This document shows positions 3,242 to 21,780 of a stretch of DNA of 24,711 nt, piece by piece. The notes beneath the pieces were generated by a model that searched no databases, was not told the DNA's origin, and was given only the letters and a program-made list of their open reading frames with translations. The translations under genes and the position numbers were made by a program. The stretch is from positions 1 through 24,711 of the IMG/VR virus record IMGVR_UViG_3300006917_000146; one strand, written 5' to 3'. Within the stretch, counting starts at the first letter, position 1. Each line of letters starts with the position of its first letter. The stretch comes from a virus.

Positions 3242-3388
3242 ATGATTTTATTCTTAGAGATACTCGGAACCCTGCTCATCGTGGCTGGACTATTCTTGAT
3301 ATCAATACCAACAGGGCTGATAAGCATCGGCCTCGCAATTCTGTTATTCACGTTCGCAATTGAACGAGGACAGAGGAAGGCTAAGTAA
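3242..3388 (+). CDS. Small two-helix membrane protein
   Basis: A 48-residue ORF starting at ATG 3242 after an AGGAG Shine-Dalgarno (3233-3237) that overlaps the terminase stop codon. Nearly the whole protein is hydrophobic: a first segment of about residues 3-22 (LFLEILGTLLIVAGLFLISI) and a second of about 24-40 (GLISIGLAILLFTFA), with a charged tail ERGQRKAK. This predicts a small membrane hairpin with a basic cytoplasmic end. The stop TAA shares a base with the portal start (TAATG). Function is unknown; its place between terminase and portal does not fit a classical holin, but a membrane role in assembly or exclusion is possible. The strong Shine-Dalgarno and exact coupling are what support it as a real gene. 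Confidence 0.7.
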   Translation: MILFLEILGTLLIVAGLFLISIPTGLISIGLAILLFTFAIERGQRKAK

Positions 3389-4932
3389 TGCTCTCACGAC
3401 TGTTCAACGGCGGCACAGAAGAACGAGCGATCTCATACCAGACCCTATTCGCATTAGGCGACGGCTTCGCAGTTTCCACCAACGCCGGAACAATTATTAC
3501 ACAACAAGACTCGCTGAAAATAGAAGCGGTCTATTCATGCGTGCGTATCATCGCAGACAGCATCTCAACACTTCCAGTCGACACCTTCCTCCGATACAAC
3601 GGAACACGCCTCCCATTACGACCACGACCACAATGGCTAGACACGCCAGAGTCAGGCGTGAGCAGAATAGAACACTTCCAACAAGTGCTCGTCTCATTGA
3701 TGTTGAACGGAAACTCATTCACAAGAATTCTGCGCGACGACCAAGGCATCGCCGGCCTGATTGTTCTCAACCCTGAAAAAGTCCAGTGCAGCCGCGACCA
3801 AGTAACACGCCGCCCGATTTACGTCTACGACAACCGCGACGTCATTCAAGCAGCAGACATGATCCACCTCACCGAGATGAGACTGCCAGGCGACCTGCGC
3901 GGACGTTCACGCATTGACCTCATCAAAGAAAACCTAGGACTCGCACGCGCACTCGAAGAATTCGCTGCACGCTTCTTCGGACAAGGCTCAAGCGCATCAG
4001 GAATAATCGAGTTCCCAGGAAACCTCTCACGTGAACAAGCAAAAAACCTGGTCGACGGTTTCGAGGAAAGCCATCGCGGACTACGCCGATCGCACAGACC
4101 AGGCATCCTCACCGGAGGTGCACGCTTCAGCAAAACAACAGTCGACAACGACAGCGCACAATTCTTAGAATCACGCAAATTCGCAGTCGAAGAAATAGCA
4201 CGCATATTCCGCGTACCACCATCAATGCTCGGAGTGACAACGCCAGGCGCGATGAGTTACGCAAGCGTCGAAATGAACTCGATCCACTTCGTACAACACA
4301 CGCTCCGCCCATACCTCGAAAAAATTGAAGAAGGATACAGCCGACTACTCGAAGGCCGAGCATTCATGAAATTCAACGTCGACGGATTACTTCGAGGCGA
4401 CCAAGCATCACGCTACGCAGCATTCAGCACAGGCATCCAGTCTGGCTTTCTTTCAATCAACGACATCCACAAGCTCGAAGACATGCCGCCGGTAGAAGGC
4501 GGCGACGCATACCGCGTGCCACTTGCCAACGTGGACATCAACGCAGCAAACCTCGCAGAGATAGACCGCAAATCAATTATCGCGCAACGCCTCATCCTTT
4601 CAGGCTTTGACCCAGCAGAAGTCCTCGCATCGCTCGGACTTCCAGCAGTCACACACACAGGCGTCCCATCATCAGGACTGCAACCACTCGCAAGCATTAA
4701 CCCAACAAACCCGCAAGCAGCATACGAAGTCAAATCGCAGGACATGAACATCACGATGCCAGAGATGGTGCTGAACTACACGCCGCCAGCAGTCAACGTT
4801 CCAGCACCAATCATCAACGTCCCAGAAACAGTTGTGCGAGTAAACATTCCAGAACAACGACCAACGATCAGAACCGTTGAACGAGACAACAACGGACGCA
4901 TCGTCAACATTATCGAGAAGGTAGAAGAATAA
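3388..4932 (+). CDS. Portal protein (HK97 type)
   Basis: A 514-residue protein of the phage_portal family, which forms the dodecameric ring at the capsid vertex through which DNA enters and leaves. Typical features are the early segment IEAVYSCVRIIADSISTLPV (about 50-69), the NGNSFTRI segment near 110, and FRVPPSMLGVTTPGAMSYAS (about 273-292), followed by the long helical stem and LRPYLEKIEEG. After about residue 440 there is an unusual proline/valine-rich tail with repeated INVPAPIINVPETVVRVNIP-like units, ending in a charged segment with DNNGRIVNI. That tail is probably extended and exposed and is not part of the core portal fold. Start and stop overlap the neighbouring genes by one base each, indicating translational coupling. 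Confidence 0.93.
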   Translation: MLSRLFNGGTEERAISYQTLFALGDGFAVSTNAGTIITQQDSLKIEAVYSCVRIIADSISTLPVDTFLRYNGTRLPLRPRPQWLDTPESGVSRIEHFQQVLVSLMLNGNSFTRILRDDQGIAGLIVLNPEKVQCSRDQVTRRPIYVYDNRDVIQAADMIHLTEMRLPGDLRGRSRIDLIKENLGLARALEEFAARFFGQGSSASGIIEFPGNLSREQAKNLVDGFEESHRGLRRSHRPGILTGGARFSKTTVDNDSAQFLESRKFAVEEIARIFRVPPSMLGVTTPGAMSYASVEMNSIHFVQHTLRPYLEKIEEGYSRLLEGRAFMKFNVDGLLRGDQASRYAAFSTGIQSGFLSINDIHKLEDMPPVEGGDAYRVPLANVDINAANLAEIDRKSIIAQRLILSGFDPAEVLASLGLPAVTHTGVPSSGLQPLASINPTNPQAAYEVKSQDMNITMPEMVLNYTPPAVNVPAPIINVPETVVRVNIPEQRPTIRTVERDNNGRIVNIIEKVEE

Positions 4933-5322: not shown

Positions 5323-6081
5323 ATGGCCGTCCAACGGTTCGTCCTCAACACAAGCACCCTCAACGACGCAACCACAGGACTAGCAGGCGGCGCAACGCCC
5401 GCCTTCAAACTCGACACAAGCACCCTCGACAGCACAGCCAAACTTGATGGCGTCGACTACCTCACCCTCGCCACAGCAACCGCACAGCTCGGAACAAGCC
5501 AAGCCACAGCAACCAGCCAAACAACGAAACAAGCAACCGCAACAGCCAACCTCGGAACAAGCCAGGCCACAGCAACCAGCACCACCATCAACCCAGTCTC
5601 CGCAACAGCCAACCTCGGAACAACCCAGGCCACAGCACAAACCACTATCACAAAACAAGCCACAGCAAACACACAGCTCGGCACAATTCAAGCAACAGCA
5701 ACTACCACAACAAACACCAACGCAACAGCAACCGCACCACTTGGATCAGGCCAAGCCACAGCAACCAGCCAAACACGCATCGTCCCAAACGGCACAGCAA
5801 ACCTCGGAACCACAAACGCCACAGCAACAGCAACCGTCACCCCACAACCAACCCCAGAACCAACCACAACACAAGGCGGCAACCCTTGGTGGCGCAAACA
5901 AATACCAACAACCAAACAACCACCAAAACAAGAACAACAACCAGAACCAACAGTCGAACAATTCAAACCACGCGAAACATTCGCACGAGCATCAACCAAC
6001 GCAAAACTTCAAGCAACAGCAACAGCAACAGTCGCATGGTCTATCCTTGAAGATGAAGCAGACCTCCTGCTTTTGATTTGA
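5323..6081 (+). CDS. Repeat protein with six exact 21-residue Ala/Thr-rich units, probable virion fibre or decoration
   Basis: A 252-residue protein with three parts. Residues 1-47 hold two copies of a motif (FVLNTSTLND and FKLDTSTLDSTAKLDG). Residues about 50-175 are six tandem units of 21 residues with core ATAxLGTxQATAT. Residues about 176-225 are a Pro/Gln linker with GGNPWWRKQ, followed by a partial seventh unit (AKLQATATATVAWS) and an acidic-hydrophobic end (EDEADLLLLI). The alternating small and beta-branched residues suggest stacked beta strands, such as a solenoid or fibre. There is no Shine-Dalgarno; the gene starts 7 nt after the previous stop, so it is probably coupled. I do not recognise a named family. 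A structural role is inferred from position and composition. Confidence 0.7.
   Translation: MAVQRFVLNTSTLNDATTGLAGGATPAFKLDTSTLDSTAKLDGVDYLTLATATAQLGTSQATATSQTTKQATATANLGTSQATATSTTINPVSATANLGTTQATAQTTITKQATANTQLGTIQATATTTTNTNATATAPLGSGQATATSQTRIVPNGTANLGTTNATATATVTPQPTPEPTTTQGGNPWWRKQIPTTKQPPKQEQQPEPTVEQFKPRETFARASTNAKLQATATATVAWSILEDEADLLLLI
5470..5847 (+). repeat. Six tandem 63-bp repeats within the repeat protein gene
   Basis: The unit containing CTCGGAACAA (or a close variant) recurs with its GGAACAA-type core at 5491, 5554, 5617, 5680, 5743 and 5806, exactly 63 bp apart each time with no indels. Units differ by scattered substitutions, fewest between units 2 and 3, so they arose by tandem duplication and then diverged while keeping the reading frame. 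Confidence 0.85.
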
Positions 6082-6088
6082 GGACACG

Positions 6089-6352
6089 ATGGCAATTCAA
6101 ACAGGACAACTCAGCGTCGGAACAGCAGCAACCCGCATCTTAGGAACACGCGGAAACTACGGACACGTGATCCTCCAAAACTTAGACAGCACAGACGCCG
6201 TCTACATTGGCGGAGCAAACGTCACAACAAGCACAGGATTAGCACTTTCCAAACTCGACCATCATGACTTCGACTTGATGCCGGCGACAGAACTCTACGC
6301 CATATCAACAAAAACAGGTCACACCCTTTCATACTTTCTTCAAGAGCTCTAA
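6089..6352 (+). CDS. Small beta-rich virion protein of unknown function
   Basis: An 87-residue protein starting after a GAGG Shine-Dalgarno at 6080-6083. It opens with GQLSVGTAATRILGTRG and continues with VILQNLDSTDAVYIGGANVT, then TGLALSKLDHHDFDLMPATE, and ends in LYAISTKTGHTLSYFLQEL. This pattern, of a short beta barrel or sandwich with an 'xxNLDSTDAVYIGG' core, occurs in many phage structural operons, often as a small head or tail accessory protein. No signal peptide or membrane segment is present. Its stop overlaps the start of the prohead protease gene by one base. The structural role is inferred from position; the exact function is unknown. Confidence 0.65.
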   Translation: MAIQTGQLSVGTAATRILGTRGNYGHVILQNLDSTDAVYIGGANVTTSTGLALSKLDHHDFDLMPATELYAISTKTGHTLSYFLQEL

Positions 6353-8004
6353 TGCCGTACTACATCACAGACAAAGCAGAAGGCTGCACAGGCTGGGCAA
6401 CGATTAAAGAAGACGGCGAAGTCATCGGCTGCCACACAACAAAACAAGATGCGATCGATCAGATGGTCGCTGTTTCAGTAGCAGAAGAAATGGAACCAGG
6501 CGGAGAACGCGCAATCGAACTCAACCTTCCCGCATACATTCGAAGCGCAGCAGCCAAAGGACTCGAACACTATCGAGAAGGACTTGGAGGCGACGGACTT
6601 GTTGAACGAACAATTCGAGAAGCACGCGCAATGGCTGCAGGAAACATCAGCGAAGACAAAGTCATACGAGCAAACGCGTGGGGCCAACGACACCTCGTCG
6701 ATTTAGAAGCACCTAAGAACTCCAATCCAGACAACGACGAATACCCAGGCGCCGGCGCCGTTGCTTTCTTCCTTTGGGGAATAAACCCATTAGACCCCAA
6801 ACCAGCAATGGACTGGTTCAGTAACAAAGCAGAAGCCATCAAAGCAGACGAAAACAAACGCAGCAGCGACGCAGAAGACGTCATCATTGTTGACATCGAT
6901 GGAACACTAATCGCAGGCGGAAAAGGCATTCAAAAAAACATCGACTACGTCAACGCCTTATACGAAGCCAACTACATCTACATCGTCACAGGCAGAAGCG
7001 AAACAGAAGAAGCAACAACCATCCAAGAACTAGATGCCGCTGGCGTCAAATATGACGACATCGAATTCAACGACGACATGAGCGTCTCGACACCTGAATA
7101 CAAAAAAGAGAAGGCCGCAGACATTCAAGAAGAAGCAACCGTCATCCTCGCCATCGATAACGATGCAGCAGCTCGAAGCGCGTACAGCTCTCTGGGAATA
7201 AAAACCCTAGACCCTAAAGACATCAAACCAACACCACCAACGCGATCGTTCACATTCTGGCGCAAACAAAGTGAACCCTTTGCTACGCTTGAACCTATGG
7301 CTGAACAAGTCGAAACACGACGCGTAACATTCAACGACTTCGAACTCCGCGCAGCACCACAAGGCGACGGTATGACATTTAGTGGCTACGCCGCAGTGTT
7401 CAACAGCGACAGCGAACCGCTCCCATTCATCGAACGAATCGCACCTGGCGCATTTGCGAAAAGCCTCAAAGCACGCAACAACATCCGCATGTACATGAAC
7501 CACGACTCAAGCATGCTCCTCGCAACCACACGAGCAAAAACACTTAGACTTCAGGAAGACAGCAAAGGCCTGCACGTGGACGCAGACCTACCAGACACCA
7601 CAATCGGTCGCGACCTTTCAGTTCTCATGCAACGCAAAGACGTCGACTCGATGAGCTTCGGCTTCACCGTCCCACAAGGCGGAGACAGATGGAGCGACGA
7701 CGGAATGCGACGCGAACTAACACAGATCAAGCTCTTCGAAGTTTCAGTGGTGACAGGCTTCCCAGCATACGCAGCAACAAGCGCAAGCGTCCGATCACTT
7801 GACGCACTCGCAACACGCACAGGAATCGACGCAGATCAACTAGCAGCAGCAATCAACACACTCGAAGCAGGGCAAACATTGAGCCCAGACCACGCTGCAG
7901 TCATTCGCGAAACAGTGGCCAAGTTGGAGCCACAACAAGAAGCAGCATCATCGCGCATCGGCCTAATGGCTAAGCACCTTGACCTGCTAAAAGATTTCGC
8001 TTAG
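6352..8004 (+). CDS. Prohead maturation protease fused to an inserted HAD phosphatase domain
   Basis: A 550-residue protein, more than twice the length of a usual HK97-type prohead protease. Residues 1-50 (GWATIKEDGEVIGCHTTKQD) and about 58-165 (LPAYIRSAAAKGLEHYREGL, then GDGLVERTIREARAMAAG) are modules seen at the front of other phage capsid proteases. Residues about 175-290 form a HAD-type domain: DIDGT (D181, D183), VTGR (212-215), YKKEK near 250-254 and AIDND (D269, D271), so its catalytic motifs look intact. Residues about 313-495 are the U35-type serine protease, with FSGYAAVF, H384 in MYMNHD, S435 in DSMSFGF and FEVSVVTGFPAYA. The protease trims capsid subunits and scaffold. An in-frame ATG at 7297 could give the protease alone (235 residues), but no Shine-Dalgarno precedes it. 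The C-terminal 50 residues are helical. Confidence 0.88.
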   Translation: MPYYITDKAEGCTGWATIKEDGEVIGCHTTKQDAIDQMVAVSVAEEMEPGGERAIELNLPAYIRSAAAKGLEHYREGLGGDGLVERTIREARAMAAGNISEDKVIRANAWGQRHLVDLEAPKNSNPDNDEYPGAGAVAFFLWGINPLDPKPAMDWFSNKAEAIKADENKRSSDAEDVIIVDIDGTLIAGGKGIQKNIDYVNALYEANYIYIVTGRSETEEATTIQELDAAGVKYDDIEFNDDMSVSTPEYKKEKAADIQEEATVILAIDNDAAARSAYSSLGIKTLDPKDIKPTPPTRSFTFWRKQSEPFATLEPMAEQVETRRVTFNDFELRAAPQGDGMTFSGYAAVFNSDSEPLPFIERIAPGAFAKSLKARNNIRMYMNHDSSMLLATTRAKTLRLQEDSKGLHVDADLPDTTIGRDLSVLMQRKDVDSMSFGFTVPQGGDRWSDDGMRRELTQIKLFEVSVVTGFPAYAATSASVRSLDALATRTGIDADQLAAAINTLEAGQTLSPDHAAVIRETVAKLEPQQEAASSRIGLMAKHLDLLKDFA

Positions 8005-8138: not shown

Positions 8139-9317
8139 ATGAAGGAATACATCGACCGTCAAGTCGAAATTCGTAACCGCGCATGGAACGAAGCAAAGTC
8201 GATCCTTGACAAAGCAGCAGCAGAAAAGCGTGACCTTTCAGCCGAGGAGGAGCAGACCTACAGTCGCATCTCCAAGGAACTCGAAGACCGCGCAGCAACC
8301 ATCGCAAAGCTCCGTGAAGACGAAGCTCGCGAATTGCGCCTCGATGCAGCAACCCGCGAAATCGCAGACCAGGCTCGCCCAATGGCAGCAGCACCAGTCG
8401 CAGACGACATCGCACACATTCGCTCACTCGTAATGAACGAAAAGCGCTCACACAACTTCGAGCGTCGCGACATTCTGAAGTCAAGCACCGGCTCCCCAGT
8501 GCCGACTTCGTTCTACGACCAAGTGATTATGAAGGCACGCCTCATCGCGCCAGTGCTTCAGACATCAACCGTCCTGAACACCGCAGGCGGAGAGAACCTC
8601 CAAATCCCATCGTTGTCGACTTATTCAGTAGGCACCGTGACGGGCGAAGGTTCAGCCATTGGCGAGAGCGACCCAGTATTCAACTCGTTCATCACATTGA
8701 ACGCGTACAAATACAGCTTCCTCGTGCAGCTCTCAACAGAACTGCTCGAAGACGCAGGCGTTGACATTCTCGGCTTCATGGCAGACCAAGTCGGTAACGC
8801 ACTTGGCTACGCCGTAGGTTCAGCATTGACCGTTGGAACTGGCACCGACCAGCCAAAGGGCATCGTCACTGCATCAGCAGTAGGCGGAACCGCAGGCACC
8901 GCGACAGCATTCACCGCAGACAACCTCATCGACTTGCTCTACAGCTTGGATGGCGCAGCACGCAACCTCCCAGGCGTGGGCTGGATGATGAACGGCAAGT
9001 CAGTAGGCGCAGTTCGAAAGTTGAAGGACACCGCCGGGAATTATGTATTCCAGCCAAGTCTTTCGATGGAGAGCCCAGACATGCTGCTTGGCAAACCAAT
9101 CTACGAGAACCCATCAATGGTTGACGTTGCGACAACGACCAAGTCGGTCATCGTTGGTCACTTGCCTTCGTACTACGTACGCACCGTAGGCGGCCTCCGT
9201 TTGGATCGAAGCGACGACTACGCATTCAACGCAGGACTCGTGACCTTCCGGGCCACATTCCGGGTCGACGGCAACTTGCCACAAACCAGCCACATCAAGC
9301 ACCTGCTCCAGCCATAA
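8139..9317 (+). CDS. Major capsid protein (HK97 fold)
   Basis: A 392-residue phage_capsid family protein. Residues 1-80 are strongly charged and helical (EYIDRQVEIRNRAWNEAKS onward), matching the delta or scaffold domain that directs shell assembly and is removed by the protease. After a linker at about 80-115, the shell domain begins near SSTGSPVPTSFYDQ. It continues with QIPSLSTYSVGTVTGEGSAI, LVQLSTELLEDAGVDILGFM and GTGTDQPKGIV, all typical of this family. The end GLVTFRATFRVDGNLPQTSH is the usual final strand region. The exact cleavage site cannot be read. A Shine-Dalgarno-like AAAAGG lies at 8122-8127. Codon use differs from its neighbours: lysine is mostly AAG here and mostly AAA elsewhere, consistent with selection for high expression. 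Confidence 0.95.
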   Translation: MKEYIDRQVEIRNRAWNEAKSILDKAAAEKRDLSAEEEQTYSRISKELEDRAATIAKLREDEARELRLDAATREIADQARPMAAAPVADDIAHIRSLVMNEKRSHNFERRDILKSSTGSPVPTSFYDQVIMKARLIAPVLQTSTVLNTAGGENLQIPSLSTYSVGTVTGEGSAIGESDPVFNSFITLNAYKYSFLVQLSTELLEDAGVDILGFMADQVGNALGYAVGSALTVGTGTDQPKGIVTASAVGGTAGTATAFTADNLIDLLYSLDGAARNLPGVGWMMNGKSVGAVRKLKDTAGNYVFQPSLSMESPDMLLGKPIYENPSMVDVATTTKSVIVGHLPSYYVRTVGGLRLDRSDDYAFNAGLVTFRATFRVDGNLPQTSHIKHLLQP

Positions 9318-9427: not shown

Positions 9428-10738
9428 GTGGGCAATGCGCGTAATCATCCAGAACATAATGGTCGAGTTACCAGACCTCGAAGCGCAGCTCCTGCTGCAC
9501 CGAGGCATAGCGCACTTACCGGAACAAGCGGACGAACCAACAGAGACACGTTACGAATCCTCTGGTACTCAAACGCGCCCTTCGCGCCAACAGGCTACGG
9601 CACGCAAACCGCGCAAGCAGTCCCCAGGCTCATCAAAGAAGGCCACGAAGTAGCCATCCACGCGATGTACGGCATCGAAGGCGTAGCTTCGATGTGGAAC
9701 GGCATCAAGCTCTATCCACGAGGAATGGCACCATACAGCGACGACATTCTCACAGCACACTGGATGGATTGGTCAAACGGCAACAAAAACATCCCAGCAA
9801 TGCTCATGACACTTTTCGATGTTTGGGTATTGAAATCACCTTCTCTAAACCAGATAACAAACATCGCATCGTGGGTACCAATTGACCACGCACCATGCCC
9901 ACAAGAAGTCGTCGCCTGGTGCAAACGCGACAACGTCAAACCAATCGCAATGTCACAATTCGGACTACGAATGCTTGAAACAGAAGGCGTCGAGGCCTTC
10001 TACGCGCCACACGGAATCGACGCAACATTCAAACCAACACCAAAGTGGAGCAACGGGCAACGCGAATACACAGGACGCGAACTCATGCAAATACCAGAAG
10101 ACAAATTTGTGGTGATGATGAACGCAGCAAACAAAGGACAAAACCCATCGCGTAAATCATTCGGAGAAAACCTGCTGGCCTTTTCGATTTTCGCGCAAAA
10201 CAAACCAGACGCAATCATCTACCTGCACACAGAACGCGACGGAGCAATGGGAGGAATCAACCTCACACCATTACTAGAAGCCTGCGGAATTCAACCACAC
10301 CAATACAAAATTGTGGACCAATACTCCTATCGCGCCGGCTTCCCACAAGGCGCACTCGCAGCGATGTATACAGCAGCAGACGTCCTACTTGCCTGCAGCA
10401 TGGGCGAAGGCTTCGGCATTCCAGTGATCGAAGCACAAGCCTGCGGAACACAAGTCATCGTCTCAAACTTCACCGCACAACCAGAACTTATCGGAGCAGG
10501 CTGGGCAGTCGACGTACAACCATTCTGGGACGCACACCAAAAGTCATGGTTCTGCACACCACAAGTCCCATCCATCGTTGACGCATTAAACGAGGCATAC
10601 AAAACAACACGAGGAACAAACCAAACAGCCGTCGATTTTGCGAAAGACTACGAAGCAGACCAAGTCTGGGAAACACACTGGCAACCAATTATGAAAGAGC
10701 TCATCGCATGGTGCCATGCATCATTATCCCAGTCTTGA
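9428..10738 (+). CDS. GT-B glycosyltransferase (GT4-like)
   Basis: A 436-residue ORF. From about residue 41 it is a clear GT-B glycosyltransferase: TLRILWYSNAPFAPTGYGTQ begins the N-terminal Rossmann domain, and the C-terminal domain carries AMYTAADVLLACSMGEGFGI with the EX7E pair E327/E335 followed by QACGTQVIVSN, which binds the nucleotide-sugar donor. It has no signal peptide or membrane segment, so it acts in the cytoplasm. The first 40 residues look non-conserved and overlap a better-looking ORF in another frame at 9435. The only available start in frame is GTG 9428, with AAGGAG at 9416-9421. It begins a three-gene sugar-related cassette inserted between capsid and connector. The acceptor, probably a virion protein or host surface glycan, is inferred. 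Confidence 0.85.
   Translation: MGNARNHPEHNGRVTRPRSAAPAAPRHSALTGTSGRTNRDTLRILWYSNAPFAPTGYGTQTAQAVPRLIKEGHEVAIHAMYGIEGVASMWNGIKLYPRGMAPYSDDILTAHWMDWSNGNKNIPAMLMTLFDVWVLKSPSLNQITNIASWVPIDHAPCPQEVVAWCKRDNVKPIAMSQFGLRMLETEGVEAFYAPHGIDATFKPTPKWSNGQREYTGRELMQIPEDKFVVMMNAANKGQNPSRKSFGENLLAFSIFAQNKPDAIIYLHTERDGAMGGINLTPLLEACGIQPHQYKIVDQYSYRAGFPQGALAAMYTAADVLLACSMGEGFGIPVIEAQACGTQVIVSNFTAQPELIGAGWAVDVQPFWDAHQKSWFCTPQVPSIVDALNEAYKTTRGTNQTAVDFAKDYEADQVWETHWQPIMKELIAWCHASLSQS
9435..9653 (+). CDS. Small ORF overlapping the glycosyltransferase start; possibly a separate or frame-broken gene
   Basis: A 72-residue ORF (ATG 9435) in a different frame from the glycosyltransferase. Residues 1-38 (MRVIIQNIMVELPDLEAQLL, then LHRGIAHLPEQADEPT) look like a real small phage protein of the kind found directly after capsid genes, where a strand-turn-helix is followed by an acidic tail. 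Residues 40-72 are Arg/Lys/Pro/Gln-rich and look like an out-of-frame shadow of the glycosyltransferase. The better-looking coding therefore switches from this frame to the glycosyltransferase frame at about 9545-9555. AAGGAG at 9416-9421 is 13 nt from this ATG, longer than usual. Either both overlap genuinely, or a frame change joins them. Confidence 0.4.
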   Translation: MRVIIQNIMVELPDLEAQLLLHRGIAHLPEQADEPTETRYESSGTQTRPSRQQATARKPRKQSPGSSKKATK

Positions 10739-11376
10739 ACCGCTACGACCTCCTCGAACGCGCCATCAAATCAATCGACTACCCAGTCGAAGAACTTCTC
10801 ATCATTGACAACGGAGGACAAAGCACACTCAACGATTACCCCTGGATAATCGATAGACGACACGTGAAAAATTATCGCGTTTGGAGCATGCCAACAAACC
10901 TCGGCGTAGCACCATCATGGAACCTCGGCATCAAAGCAACACCACACGCACGCGGCTGGATACTCATGAACTCAGACGCAGCATTCGAACCAGGCCAACT
11001 CGAACACTTCCACAACGACACAACAGAAGAAGCTATCATCTTCACAAGCGCAACGCCAGGCTGGTCATGCGTATGGATAGGAGCCAACGTCGTAAAGAAG
11101 ATAGGCCTGTTCTCAGAATGCTACGTGCCCGCTTACTTCGAAGACAACGACTACGAACAACGAGCCAGGAACAACGGCATACCAATACTCATATCAGACG
11201 CAGCCGTAAAACACGACAACTCATCCACAATAAACTCATCTCCAGAACTAAGCGAAAAAAACGCTCGCAGCTTCCAAGCAAACCAAAACCTACACATCGA
11301 GAGATGGCAAAACGGAACACCACCAATAGGACAATGGGACCTAACACGACGAAGGGAACTCGGCTGGGATGCTTAA
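10708..11376 (+). CDS. GT-A glycosyltransferase (GT2-like)
   Basis: A 222-residue protein. It opens with the GT2 strand IIIPVLNRYDLLERAI (about 5-20), followed by ELLIIDNGG. The metal- and sugar-nucleotide region is GWILMNSDAAF, where NSD (88-90) stands in the DXD position. FEDNDYEQRARNNGI near 143-157 matches the acidic segment seen in rhamnosyl- and related GT2 enzymes. It is short for the family but has the whole GT-A core, with no membrane segment. It overlaps the GT-B gene by 31 nt and the next gene by 8 nt, so the three are co-translated. Donor and acceptor are unknown; a role in adding a second sugar to the same glycan is inferred. Confidence 0.87.
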   Translation: MVPCIIIPVLNRYDLLERAIKSIDYPVEELLIIDNGGQSTLNDYPWIIDRRHVKNYRVWSMPTNLGVAPSWNLGIKATPHARGWILMNSDAAFEPGQLEHFHNDTTEEAIIFTSATPGWSCVWIGANVVKKIGLFSECYVPAYFEDNDYEQRARNNGIPILISDAAVKHDNSSTINSSPELSEKNARSFQANQNLHIERWQNGTPPIGQWDLTRRRELGWDA

Positions 11377-12019
11377 ACTCGAAGACTTCAAAAACAAACA
11401 CAAAGACGAAACGATCCACGTCTTCGGTTCAGGCGCAACACTGAACTACCTAGACCCCGCCTACTTCAACAACACAACAAACATAACGACCAACTTCGCC
11501 GGGTCCATCTTCGGACTCAAAAACTATTACTGCTTCAGCCACTACCACGAAGACAGCAGAAAAGAAAACAACAAACCAGAATGCGCTGCAGTTTTCACCC
11601 CAGACAAAGAACACGGAACAGACGGCTACTTCATCGACATCCAAGAAAACATCGTGCTATTCGAAGCAACACAAGGAAGACCAGGCGCCTCATTTGATCC
11701 ACAAGGAAAAGACTGGCCAACCAAAGAAAACAGCCTCGTAGTCGGATCATCAGGAATACACGGAGCCATGCACCTAGCCGCATACATGGGCGCAAAATTC
11801 ATCGTCCTCGTAGCAGCAGACTGCGGAACACTTGGAGGCAACCATCGCATCAACGGCTACCCAACAGGCGACACCCACTGGCAGCTCTACGAAATTCACC
11901 TAAGAAGAATGAAACAACGGCTCCACCAAACCTACGGATGCCAAACCTACTCACTCAACCCATTCATCAACTACAGCCTCGAAGGGACACCATACAGAGG
12001 CCACGCAACCATCAACTAG
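11369..12019 (+). CDS. MptE/DUF115-like Rossmann protein, probable glycan-related enzyme
   Basis: A 216-residue protein. ETIHVFGSGATLNYLDP (about 14-30) is a nucleotide-binding-type GSG loop, and about 124-153 has VGSSGIHGAMHLAAYMGAKF followed by IVLVAADCGT. This two-part pattern resembles the MptE-like/DUF115 fold, a group that includes flagellin-modifying Maf-type glycosyltransferases and sialyltransferase-like proteins. The late segment GNHRINGYPTGDTHWQLY could contribute to substrate binding. It overlaps the GT2 gene by 8 nt and closes the cassette. I am confident of the general fold class, less so of catalysis; a sugar-transfer role rests mainly on context. Confidence 0.6.
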   Translation: MLKLEDFKNKHKDETIHVFGSGATLNYLDPAYFNNTTNITTNFAGSIFGLKNYYCFSHYHEDSRKENNKPECAAVFTPDKEHGTDGYFIDIQENIVLFEATQGRPGASFDPQGKDWPTKENSLVVGSSGIHGAMHLAAYMGAKFIVLVAADCGTLGGNHRINGYPTGDTHWQLYEIHLRRMKQRLHQTYGCQTYSLNPFINYSLEGTPYRGHATIN

Positions 12020-17813: not shown

Positions 17814-19067
17814 ATGGCACAACAAACCATCTGGGGCGAAACACTCGCAGTCAAACTCGACGTCGGCTTCCTAACCGACGTCTTCAAATTAGACAGCAGC
17901 ACACTAGACGGAACAGACAAACTCGAAGGAACGACAGACTTCATAGACATCACCGAGTACGTCCAAACAATCAACATCAACCGAGGACGCAACAGCCAGC
18001 TCGACACATTCAACCCAGGCACACTCAACATCACAGCAGACGACCGCGCAAGCAGCCGCTCATTCGACCCATTAAACACAGACTCACCCTGGTACCAAGG
18101 CACACTAGGAATCGCACCACGACGCAAAATAGAAATTTATGGAGGCAGCGCAGGAACAGCAGCGCTATACAAAGGCTACGTCTACGACCTCAATATCGAA
18201 TACGACGAGCCAAACCTTTCGACAGCAACCATCCTCGCAGTCGACGCACTAGCCCAACTCAGCCAAACCAACCTGACCGCATTCAACCCAACACAACAAC
18301 TCACCTCACAACGCGTAGACGCCATTCTCAACCGCAACGAAGTCTCCTGGTCCACAGCCCTACGAAACATAACCACAGGCGTAGCCACATGCGGCACCAT
18401 CGCCTACGAAGAAAACACCAACACACTCCAAGCCTTACAAGCCGTACAGCTCGCAGAAAACGGTCGCCTCTTCGCAGACAGAGAAGGCCTCATTCAATTC
18501 GACCCACGCATCACGACATCGTTCGGAACAGCCATCGCAACACTTGGAGGAACAGCAACAACAGCCATACCAATCGAAGCACTACAAACCGTCTACGGAG
18601 CAGAAACAGTACTGAACCGCATCTCGATACAAATAGCAGGCGGAACCGCATCGAGCGTCGCAAACGGAACAGCAAGCCAAACAGAATACGGAATTAAAAA
18701 CTTCTCGCTCACAGACGTCCCGCTCGTCGACAACGCAGCAGGCTCAGCACTCGCAGCCAACCTCCTCGCCACATTCCAAACGCCGGAGGTTTACTTCACA
18801 GAAGTCGGAATTCTTCTAAACAGACTGACAGCAGAACAACAAGATCAAGTGGCTCGTTTCGAGATAGGCGACATCCTCGCAGTAACTAAAACATTCACAA
18901 CAGGAACACCCAGCTCGATAACACAGAACGTCGTTATCGAATCGATACGACGACAGATAACCCCAGGAAGACATCAAGTCGTTCTGGGCCTAGGCAAGAT
19001 TGACCTGCTGCTTCCGTTCATTCTGGACACGAGCACTCTCGATGATGCCGCATATGCGATAACCTAG
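17814..19067 (+). CDS. Minor tail protein (distal tail / baseplate type)
   Basis: A 417-residue protein. The N-terminal region FIDITEYVQTININRGRNSQ, then LDTFNPGTLNITADDRASSR and FDPLNTDSPWYQGTLGIAPR, is the conserved core of a minor tail protein family in actinobacterial phages, in which a beta domain sits at the tail tip. The middle has LFADREGLIQFDPRI and the C-terminal half has ARFEIGDILAVTK and GRHQVVLGLGKIDLL. Both ends carry the FxLDTSTLD motif: VFKLDSSTLDGTDKLEG near residues 23-39 and PFILDTSTLDDAAYA at the extreme C-terminus, a motif also present in the repeat protein at 5323. It starts 4 nt after the tape measure stop with no Shine-Dalgarno, so translation is probably coupled. Confidence 0.8.
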   Translation: MAQQTIWGETLAVKLDVGFLTDVFKLDSSTLDGTDKLEGTTDFIDITEYVQTININRGRNSQLDTFNPGTLNITADDRASSRSFDPLNTDSPWYQGTLGIAPRRKIEIYGGSAGTAALYKGYVYDLNIEYDEPNLSTATILAVDALAQLSQTNLTAFNPTQQLTSQRVDAILNRNEVSWSTALRNITTGVATCGTIAYEENTNTLQALQAVQLAENGRLFADREGLIQFDPRITTSFGTAIATLGGTATTAIPIEALQTVYGAETVLNRISIQIAGGTASSVANGTASQTEYGIKNFSLTDVPLVDNAAGSALAANLLATFQTPEVYFTEVGILLNRLTAEQQDQVARFEIGDILAVTKTFTTGTPSSITQNVVIESIRRQITPGRHQVVLGLGKIDLLLPFILDTSTLDDAAYAIT

Positions 19068-20147: not shown

Positions 20148-20506
20148 TGGCTTACTACGCAGAACTCGACAACAACAATAAAGTCATTTCAGTAATGGCA
20201 ATACACAACAACGAACTCCTTGAAGACGGATCAGAAAACGACGCTAAAGGTTTGGAATTCTGTAATTCAATTAAACAAGCGAAATGGATACGAACCTCCT
20301 TCAGCGGTCGCATTCGAAAACAATACGCAGCCATTGGATACACATACGACGAAACAACTGACGTTTTCATCGCACCACAGCCATACCCATCCTGGCAACT
20401 AAACAGCAACTACGATTGGCAAGCACCAATCGAATACCCTGCAGATGGAAAACGATACGCATGGGACGAAGACACGCAGGCCTGGGTAGAAATAGCCGCT
20501 GGCTAA
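20147..20506 (+). CDS. Small tail-fibre-associated protein of aquatic phages
   Basis: A 119-residue protein. It starts YYAELDNNNKVISVMAI and has IRKQYAAIGYTYDETTDVFI, then APQPYPSWQLNSNYDWQAPI and GKRYAWDEDTQAWVEI. This 'KxYAxIGYTYD...F.APQPYPSW.L' pattern is very common next to fibre genes in marine and freshwater phages. Its exact function is not established; assembly chaperone or fibre-tip roles have been suggested by position only. It is coupled to the glycine-rich fibre gene (one-base overlap), and its 3' end contains the start of the secreted protein gene at 20461 in another frame. Confidence 0.7.
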   Translation: MAYYAELDNNNKVISVMAIHNNELLEDGSENDAKGLEFCNSIKQAKWIRTSFSGRIRKQYAAIGYTYDETTDVFIAPQPYPSWQLNSNYDWQAPIEYPADGKRYAWDEDTQAWVEIAAG

Positions 20507-21780
20507 TCATCATCCCCGCGAGCCTCCTCGCGCTTTTCATTCCAAGCAAAACCAAAGCAGACACACTCGGCGCCTGGACCTTCAGCAAAACCTGCATCGC
20601 AGCAGAAGGCGGCAACACAACACCAACCGCAGACGGCTTCATCATCACCGGGCCAGACGGAGGAACCTGCGCAGGCAAAGCAAACTACGCGCAGCTCCAA
20701 ACAACCATCCCAGAAGGAACCACCCTCATCACCTTCACGTGGACCTACCAAACCAACGACGGCGCCTGGTACGACCCACCCCAATACGGCATCAACGGAA
20801 CCATCACCACCCTCCTCAACCAAGGCAACCAAGGAACAGGAACCGTCAACGCGATAGTTCAAACAGGCGACACATTCACCATCCGCCAAGCCTCAACAGA
20901 CACCTGCTGCCAACCAGGAATTCTCACCATAAGCAACCTGAACTACGGCACCCAAGAAACCACAACCACCACCACAACCGAGCCAAGCACCACACTCCCA
21001 GAAACAACCCTGCCGGAGACAACCCTCCCAGCTCAAACAACCACTACCGACGCCCCAACCACCACCGTCGAAACAACCACCACAACCACAACAACGACGA
21101 CAACAACAACTACCTCGACGACCAGTACGACCGTCTACGTGCAACCCGCCACCACCGCCGCACCGCCCACAACAGAACCACCAACGACAACCACCACAAC
21201 GGATCAGACAACAACCACAACCACCACAACTCCAACGACCACCACAAGCACAACACAACCAACCACAACAACGACAACAAACCCACCACAAACGACATCA
21301 CCCCAGACTACCCAACCCACCCCAACCACCCAACCTGAACCAACCAACCCAGGCGAAGCAACAGACGCCGAGATAGCACAAACCGTCATCGCATTAGAAG
21401 CAGCAACCCCAGACCAAATAGAAGCCATCATTGATGACGTGCTCGAAAAGGAACTCCAAACAGACCAGGCGGCAGCGATTATCGCGAGCCCACAAGTTCT
21501 CGCAACCATTAACCCAGAGCAGGCCACACAGCTCTTCGAGCAGATCAACACAAACGAACTAACAGCAGACGAAGCAGAAGCCGTAGTCGCAGCCGTTCAA
21601 GACGCACCACTAGACATCAAGCAAGCATTCGAAGCAGCGCTCAACATTTTCTCAGGTTTTGCCGACAACTACATCGCCTCAAACTCAACGATCCCAGTCT
21701 CGCAGAGAAGGGCGATGGTCGCATTGAGTGCAGTATTATTGACGGCAAGCCCTGCACTAACCACACGGAGAACACGATGA
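20461..21780 (+). CDS. Secreted, threonine-rich, probably membrane-anchored protein
   Basis: A 439-residue protein from ATG 20461 (an upstream ATG at 20416 would add 15 residues). The N-terminus is a signal peptide: basic MGRRHAGLGRNSR, hydrophobic WLIIIPASLLALFIP, then SKTKA with cleavage likely before DTLGAW. A beta-rich, four-cysteine extracellular domain follows to about residue 170. A Thr/Pro-rich linker of roughly 130 residues comes next, then an acidic helical domain with repeated units (TPDQIEAIIDDVLEKELQTD; NPEQATQLFEQINTNELTAD). The C-terminus has a hydrophobic stretch (AMVALSAVLLTASPAL) and a basic tail TTRRTR, which looks like a C-terminal membrane anchor. The layout resembles cell-surface proteins of Actinobacteria. 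Function is unknown: host-surface modification, superinfection exclusion or a lysis role are possible. Confidence 0.75.
   Translation: MGRRHAGLGRNSRWLIIIPASLLALFIPSKTKADTLGAWTFSKTCIAAEGGNTTPTADGFIITGPDGGTCAGKANYAQLQTTIPEGTTLITFTWTYQTNDGAWYDPPQYGINGTITTLLNQGNQGTGTVNAIVQTGDTFTIRQASTDTCCQPGILTISNLNYGTQETTTTTTTEPSTTLPETTLPETTLPAQTTTTDAPTTTVETTTTTTTTTTTTTTSTTSTTVYVQPATTAAPPTTEPPTTTTTTDQTTTTTTTTPTTTTSTTQPTTTTTTNPPQTTSPQTTQPTPTTQPEPTNPGEATDAEIAQTVIALEAATPDQIEAIIDDVLEKELQTDQAAAIIASPQVLATINPEQATQLFEQINTNELTADEAEAVVAAVQDAPLDIKQAFEAALNIFSGFADNYIASNSTIPVSQRRAMVALSAVLLTASPALTTRRTR
20959..21353 (+). repeat. ACA/ACC-rich low-complexity tract encoding the threonine linker
   Basis: About 400 bp dominated by ACA, ACC and ACG codons, encoding runs of up to 14 threonines with interspersed Pro, Glu, Gln and Ser. 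The codons for Thr vary, so the tract is selected at protein level rather than being a simple DNA repeat. Slippage here could change linker length between relatives. Confidence 0.8.

Follow-up and report, generated by a model that had tools for sequence, protein, structure and literature searches.

The protein encoded at positions 6352-8004 of the window (the whole 24,711-nucleotide viral DNA analyzed here) appears, from comparison with its relatives, to be a mosaic whose capsid maturation protease carries a HAD phosphatase domain drawn from a set of about six exchangeable modules. We observe an intact HAD domain and an intact protease in one chain, shuffling of modules among relatives, purifying selection, and a sequence motif common to the linker in front of the protease and the capsid maturation site. 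Together these suggest a self-cutting cassette for loading enzymes into the virus head. Our full explanation, that a mosaic pre-protein loads into the prohead, cuts itself, and frees a phosphatase-bearing piece that may reach the cell, is put forward tentatively, as an account with a good chance of being right and a slightly better one of being wrong.

Gene Structure and Genomic Setting

The open reading frame (plus strand) begins with ATG and has no internal stops (Table 1). A sequence-only reading had described a single 550-residue frame joining two N-terminal modules, a HAD domain and a protease, which domain searches bear out, and the residue positions that it gave (DIDGT at 181, VTGR at 212, K251, DND at 269, H384, and S435) all proved right on re-check. 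The predicted model shows four domains with disordered linkers between them; at full length (pTM 0.32) it is best taken as separately folded parts with low-confidence linkers at residues 167-174 and 294-318. The same architecture recurs on independent contigs at 71-100% identity, which excludes an assembly artefact, and since each of the main architectures likewise recurs on independent contigs, an assembly or frameshift artefact was rejected in general. Chance is also excluded, because 84 distinct HADs retain the catalytic residues and the domain shows a dN/dS of about 0.10.

Table 1. Coordinates of the fused protein, its parts, and neighboring head genes in the window.
Feature	Position	Strand	Basis or remark
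Whole ORF, N1-N2-HAD-linker-prohead protease	6352..8004	+	550 aa
N1 module, residues 1-53	6352..6510	+	Weak DUF2188 match; alignment
N2 module, residues 55-167, helical	6514..6852	+	
HAD phosphatase domain, residues 173-292, without cap insertion	6868..7227	+	AlphaFold2, T4 Pnkp fold match
HAD motif I DIDGT, D181 nucleophile and D183	6892..6906	+	84/84 distinct sequences
HAD motif II VTGR, residues 212-215, T213 and R215	6985..6996	+	T/S 84/84, R 84/84; R215 = T4 R213 (hhalign)
HAD motif III K251	7102..7104	+	84/84
HAD motif IV DND, residues 269-271	7156..7164	+	Position 269 acidic throughout; N270 in place of T4 Asp
Predicted self-cleavage site T-R298/S299-F-T-F-W-R-K in disordered linker, residues 294-318	7240..7266	+	Capsid-site motif, low-pLDDT linker
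Internal Met316	7297..7299	+	Met kept in 87/90 distinct fused forms
HK97-type prohead protease core, residues 330-483, H384 and S435	7339..7800	+	Pfam S78, TIGR01543
HK97-type major capsid protein, expected protease substrate	8139..9317	+	TIGR01554, 4.7e-79
Putative capsid maturation site R103/S104	8445-8450	+	Motif alignment
Portal gene, upstream head-module context	3388..4932	+	TIGR01537, 4.9e-69

By its profile matches, the C-terminal half is a true HK97-type prohead protease: it matches Pfam Peptidase_S78 (2.6e-44, 151.7 bits against a cut-off of 21) and the NCBIfam equivalog proheadase_HK97 (TIGR01543, 1.6e-33, 115.9 bits against a cut-off of 59), and the active-site residues H384 and S435 are invariant in the protease alignment. 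Its median dN/dS is 0.12. The gene order is portal-protease-capsid, and the capsid protein carries an N-terminal delta region.

The methionine at the start of the protease (Met316 here) is also the start codon of the protease where the two parts are split genes, and it may be either left over from a fusion or active as an internal start codon. In a different account, which it favors, the long form would be an enzyme of the infected cell, with RNA or DNA ends or sugar phosphates as examples of its substrates, and the prohead protease would come separately from Met316 or from a split gene. Stand-alone HAD genes in larger phages and the glycosyltransferase genes nearby in the window fit this account as well. 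However, the head operon would be an odd location for a cytoplasmic enzyme, the methionine may be a mere relic, and no Shine-Dalgarno sequence precedes Met316, although there is no clear one before the split protease genes either. We regard such a cytoplasmic role as unlikely. Because Met316 lacks a Shine-Dalgarno sequence, we do not claim an internal start there; some free protease made from this codon would be a second, unproven possibility.

Catalytic Residues and Selection in the HAD Domain

The HAD region has the Rossmann-like fold and motifs I-IV of the superfamily phosphatases. It matches Acid_phosphat_B (3.9e-8, above the cut-off when run alone) and phrog_415 'polynucleotide kinase' (2.3e-15), and AlphaFold2 run on the HAD alignment gave a confident model (pLDDT 92.8, pTM 0.87). 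Among 84 distinct HAD sequences, about 41-100% identical to that of the window, D181, D183, R215, and K251 are invariant and position 213 is T or S, while each of the 83 sequences that extend over position 269 has D or E there. The search pattern contained motif I, whose conservation is thus in part built in, but not T213, K251, or D269. The earlier claim that the catalytic positions are intact therefore holds, with no loss across these relatives. Median dN/dS is 0.10 for the HAD vs. 0.47 for the linker. These results suggest that the domain is an intact, predicted working phosphatase. That it might instead be a catalytically dead structural or binding domain could be argued from the third DND position, which varies (D, N, or G), and from the replacement by Asn of the second Asp of T4. 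We consider this highly improbable, as the catalytic residues are conserved over the whole identity range and across three protein contexts under a dN/dS of about 0.1. In two relatives (L171 and L182), the motif IV Asp is replaced by Glu (ALENN), and catalysis is possibly altered.

Close matches to the HAD (45-69% identity) occur in UniProt/BFVD entries from uncultured Caudovirales, such as A0A6J5NAI8 and A0A6J5PW45, which are named 'Prohead protease' or 'HAD-like'. The phage isolate collection yielded no HAD on a protease, and the absence of the domain from the isolate phage phiPsal1 and from many relatives indicates that it is dispensable. A scan of 84,980 genomes for this subfamily outside phages, which was pattern-based and hence weak evidence of absence, gave one remote match (L163, 26%) on a MAG contig, in a protein that resembles a kinase-phosphatase, and a cellular origin of the subfamily was not adopted.

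Comparison With T4 Pnkp

When solved structures were searched with the HAD sequence, no useful match emerged, and only the fold search was informative. The best match of the HAD model is the 3'-phosphatase domain of T4 Pnkp (Z 17.7, rmsd 1.9 over 119 residues), with a small lead over Pnkp1 of the Pnkp1/Rnl/Hen1 complex (Z 16.7) and Nir2 (Z 16.4). A profile comparison with T4 PseT, at about 19% identity, aligns the DxDGT motif (D165/D167 with D181/D183), the Arg of [T/S]GR (R213 with R215), and the first motif IV Asp (D277 with D269), and in the motif III region a Lys of T4 falls near K251. In T4, R176, R213, and D277/D278 are important residues. The second motif IV Asp of T4, D278, aligns with N270 (Asn in 80 of 83 distinct HADs), and the position of R176, where the local alignment is uncertain, is R in 33 of 84 HADs and otherwise Q, E, S, N, or others. 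The predicted model also lacks a cap insertion; capless HADs often go with macromolecular substrates. No fused 5'-kinase domain was found in the window protein or among the residual segments listed for the fused forms.

Therefore, given N270 and the variable R176 position, we say that the domain has the predicted fold of a Pnkp 3'-phosphatase and may work like one, and we avoid saying that it is one. The resemblance to the 3'-phosphatase domain of T4-type polynucleotide kinase noted in the sequence-only reading is thus upheld at the level of fold; full membership of that group is not, considering Asn270, the R176 position, and the missing kinase.

Module Shuffling on the Protease

Among the 80 top-ranking relatives of the full-length protein, the protease is kept and the front part is not, yet all of the front parts are accounted for by a few modules: N1 (weakly DUF2188-like), N2, HAD, a 4-Cys module (C4 or C4b), a Tudor-like module (PF11160), and M (PF19141, DUF5824). 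Across IMG/VR contigs we found 28 arrangements with the protease (some 25-30 overall; a few may be incomplete), 16 of them with the HAD, plus two split HAD forms beyond the 28; these counts come from searches seeded with the whole protein, the HAD, N1, and C4b, and are not population frequencies. The idea of one odd gene fusion was accordingly rejected: the fusion described earlier is real, yet the same modules are also put together in many other ways, so that no sole fixed form exists. The chains run to about 440-760 aa. N1 comes first in nearly all arrangements and ends in an invariant G-E-R at its junction, the HAD is found behind N1, N2, the Tudor-like module, C4, or M, and the modules almost always precede the protease, with modules downstream of it in L133, L137, L165, L266, and L275-L279 (relatives are cited by L number).

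Two pairs of relatives illustrate this, the first by the clean presence or absence of a cassette. In L005 vs. L038, the DNA flanking the junction is 94% identical (745 bp upstream, 3.4 kb downstream), and the junction holds 448 bp including the HAD in one and 91 bp in the other; in L053 vs. L070, C4 stands in place of the HAD. Module presence and order vary freely among phages whose proteases are about 80% identical.

Two further observations concern the modules themselves. The pattern C-x2-C ... C ... C-x-x-W in L053-type C4 and in the C4b of L150 and L171 resembles a zinc or iron-sulfur site, and a Pfam HIPIP match to C4/C4b was sub-threshold and is only a hint. In L266 and L275-L279, the protease comes first and is followed by N2, the Tudor-like module, N1, or C4b, so that the order is reversible.

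The modules also occur away from a fused protease. Two clades (L101/L103/L105/L107/L119 and L129/L131/L164) encode the module array as a separate gene, with the protease gene, which has its own start, immediately downstream; fusion is therefore not the packaging route in these phages. The HAD, or N2-HAD, lies between portal and MuF-like parts in L138, L148, L153, L156, L175, and L181, and in further phage contigs, often larger ones, the HAD stands alone as a small gene of about 120-140 codons. N2 heads a protease-capsid fusion protein in Synechococcus phage S-CBS1, as do N2 and M in Roseobacter phage CRP-821. The common factor of the module carriers is that they are proteins facing the head interior.

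A Motif Common to the Linker and the Capsid Maturation Site

The capsid protein of HK97 is cut at K103/S104 (PMC10275583), and that of the window has its putative site at R103/S104. Capsid proteins of relatives have R|S-x-x-F-E-[KR]-R-D (the bar marks the expected cut) or close variants in the region where maturation cleavage is expected. The linker of the window protein, TRSFTFWRK, may be compared with the capsid sequences RSFTFEKRD (L037/L043) and RSFTFETRD (L129). Of 74 distinct linkers, 16 contain the reduced motif R[ST]xxFx[RK], which is absent from the rest of those proteins (shuffled linkers give 0.1 on average); the looser form R[ST]x(2-3)F was counted 30 times in the 74 linkers and is likewise absent elsewhere; since the reduced motif was chosen after viewing the linkers, and the linkers share ancestry, these statistics are descriptive. 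R[ST] itself is present in 57 of the 74 linkers and lacking in 17. A position-specific matrix of the full capsid site, a weaker test overall, places its top match in the linker in 24 of 112 proteins (about 7 expected) and ranks the linker site first in the window protein; it was set aside as a poor test, because the protease segment G-D-V-D-S-M-S-F also scores well. Given the post hoc choice of motif, the kinship of the linkers, and the 17 linkers without R[ST], we count the motif as sequence-level support for self-cleavage, not as proof.

Proposed Loading of the Head and Its Alternatives

Under the explanation that we prefer, fusion to the protease would bring the modules, including the phosphatase, into the prohead, where the activated protease would cut the capsid protein at R103/S104 and itself at R298/S299, freeing an N1-N2-HAD piece of about 300 residues within the head. 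Speculatively, this piece, being folded and large, might tend to remain in the virion and might enter the cell with the DNA, and its phosphatase might then act on phosphorylated DNA or RNA ends or on another macromolecule. The earlier suggestion of a phosphatase released or trapped inside the prohead is plausible, and release gains support from the putative cleavage motif common to the linker and the capsid site.

It is also possible, although we would lean against it, that the modules, including the HAD, are accessories of assembly, which regulate or tether the protease in the manner of a propeptide, are cut up, and leave the head; the HAD may then act briefly on a head component or a nucleotide in the prohead. 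The main argument for this is that the propeptides which prohead proteases release are, as a rule, expected to exit the head (PMC10052503), and the nearly constant position of the modules in front of the protease, with N1 leading, and their small repertoire of about six, compared with open-ended effector sets, also fit. By contrast, a conserved phosphatase active site would be superfluous for pure tethering, the HAD and N2 occur in portal-MuF proteins and the HAD in a stand-alone gene as well, and the free variation of modules on proteases so similar is hard to match with such a role.

The loading explanation could be extended to a general one, in which the maturation protease is a self-cutting loader whose modules, an end-processing phosphatase among them, are packed by fusion, released at R|S-x-x-F sites of the kind that mature the capsid, and delivered to the host. 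This wider reading is doubtful at present. Against the loading explanation itself count the expected exit of propeptides, the restriction of the strict motif to those 16 of the 74 linkers, the modest result of the full-site matrix, the two clades with a separate array gene, and the many relatives that lack the HAD.

Relation to Known Systems

The nearest known concept is that of the polyvalent proteins with a C-terminal assemblin-like peptidase. Polyvalent proteins are multidomain phage proteins that combine 2 to 15 domains by shuffling and are predicted to accompany the DNA; their assemblin-like peptidase, when present, is always C-terminal and is thought to carry out processing during virion assembly (Iyer et al. 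2017, PMC5512222). The window protein family fits this range of shuffled domains; its protease is C-terminal in nearly all members and is followed by modules in the relatives named above. However, the chain is smaller, few kinds of module were found, and the role of the peptidase falls to the HK97-type maturation protease of the phage itself, encoded between the portal and capsid genes; the word 'phosphatase' is absent from the main text of PMC5512222. HK97 gp4 shares the family, the gene order, and the apparent capsid cleavage position, whereas the window protease is preceded on its chain by modules, one of them an enzyme, that span about 316 residues. For domains fused to MuF, packaging in the head is predicted (PMC3482391), and the MuF polymorphic toxins are similar in combining a head protein with swappable modules, the same HAD occurring in portal-MuF fusions, although here no toxin or immunity partner was seen and the main carrier is the protease.

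The closest isolate is Pontimonas phage phiPsal1, whose prohead protease (AUV61415.1) shares the gene order, N1, N2, and the protease, and has the arrangement N1-C4-N2-protease without the HAD; the paper reporting this phage sets it aside from further discussion (PMC6106888). Domain shuffling in phage proteins has been documented in a survey from whose main text proteases are absent (PMC10684548). A limited literature search found no published description of the architecture, and the entries from uncultured phages give names only.

Prohead proteases are usually regarded as single-purpose proteins that vanish after capsid maturation. If the loading explanation is correct, small siphophages could equip the head with enzymes in a simple way, with no need for a dedicated internal protein, and the occurrence of the same modules on portal-MuF, protease, and protease-capsid genes would be explained. 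Annotation would also gain, as such proteins are currently filed as 'prohead protease' only.

Other Features of the Window

The protein encoded at 5323-6081, whose gene lies two before that of the protease, has two copies of the motif F-x-L-D-T-S-T-L-D close to its N terminus, and the protein encoded at 17814-19067 has one copy near either end; the motif is present in 70 of the 279 loci compared and resembles a shared docking or assembly tag. Within the gene at 5323-6081, which lies between portal and protease, a tandem repeat (5473-5826, periods 63 and 189 bp) encodes repeats of the type L-G-T-x-Q-A-T-A. The protein encoded at 20416-21780 contains a long Thr/Pro-rich low-complexity stretch with several overlapping short tandem repeats. 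Downstream of the capsid gene, 9428-12019 encodes two glycosyltransferases (GT1 and GT2) and an unassigned 216-aa protein; phiPsal1 has glycosyltransferases at the same place, which may mean that the virions are glycosylated.
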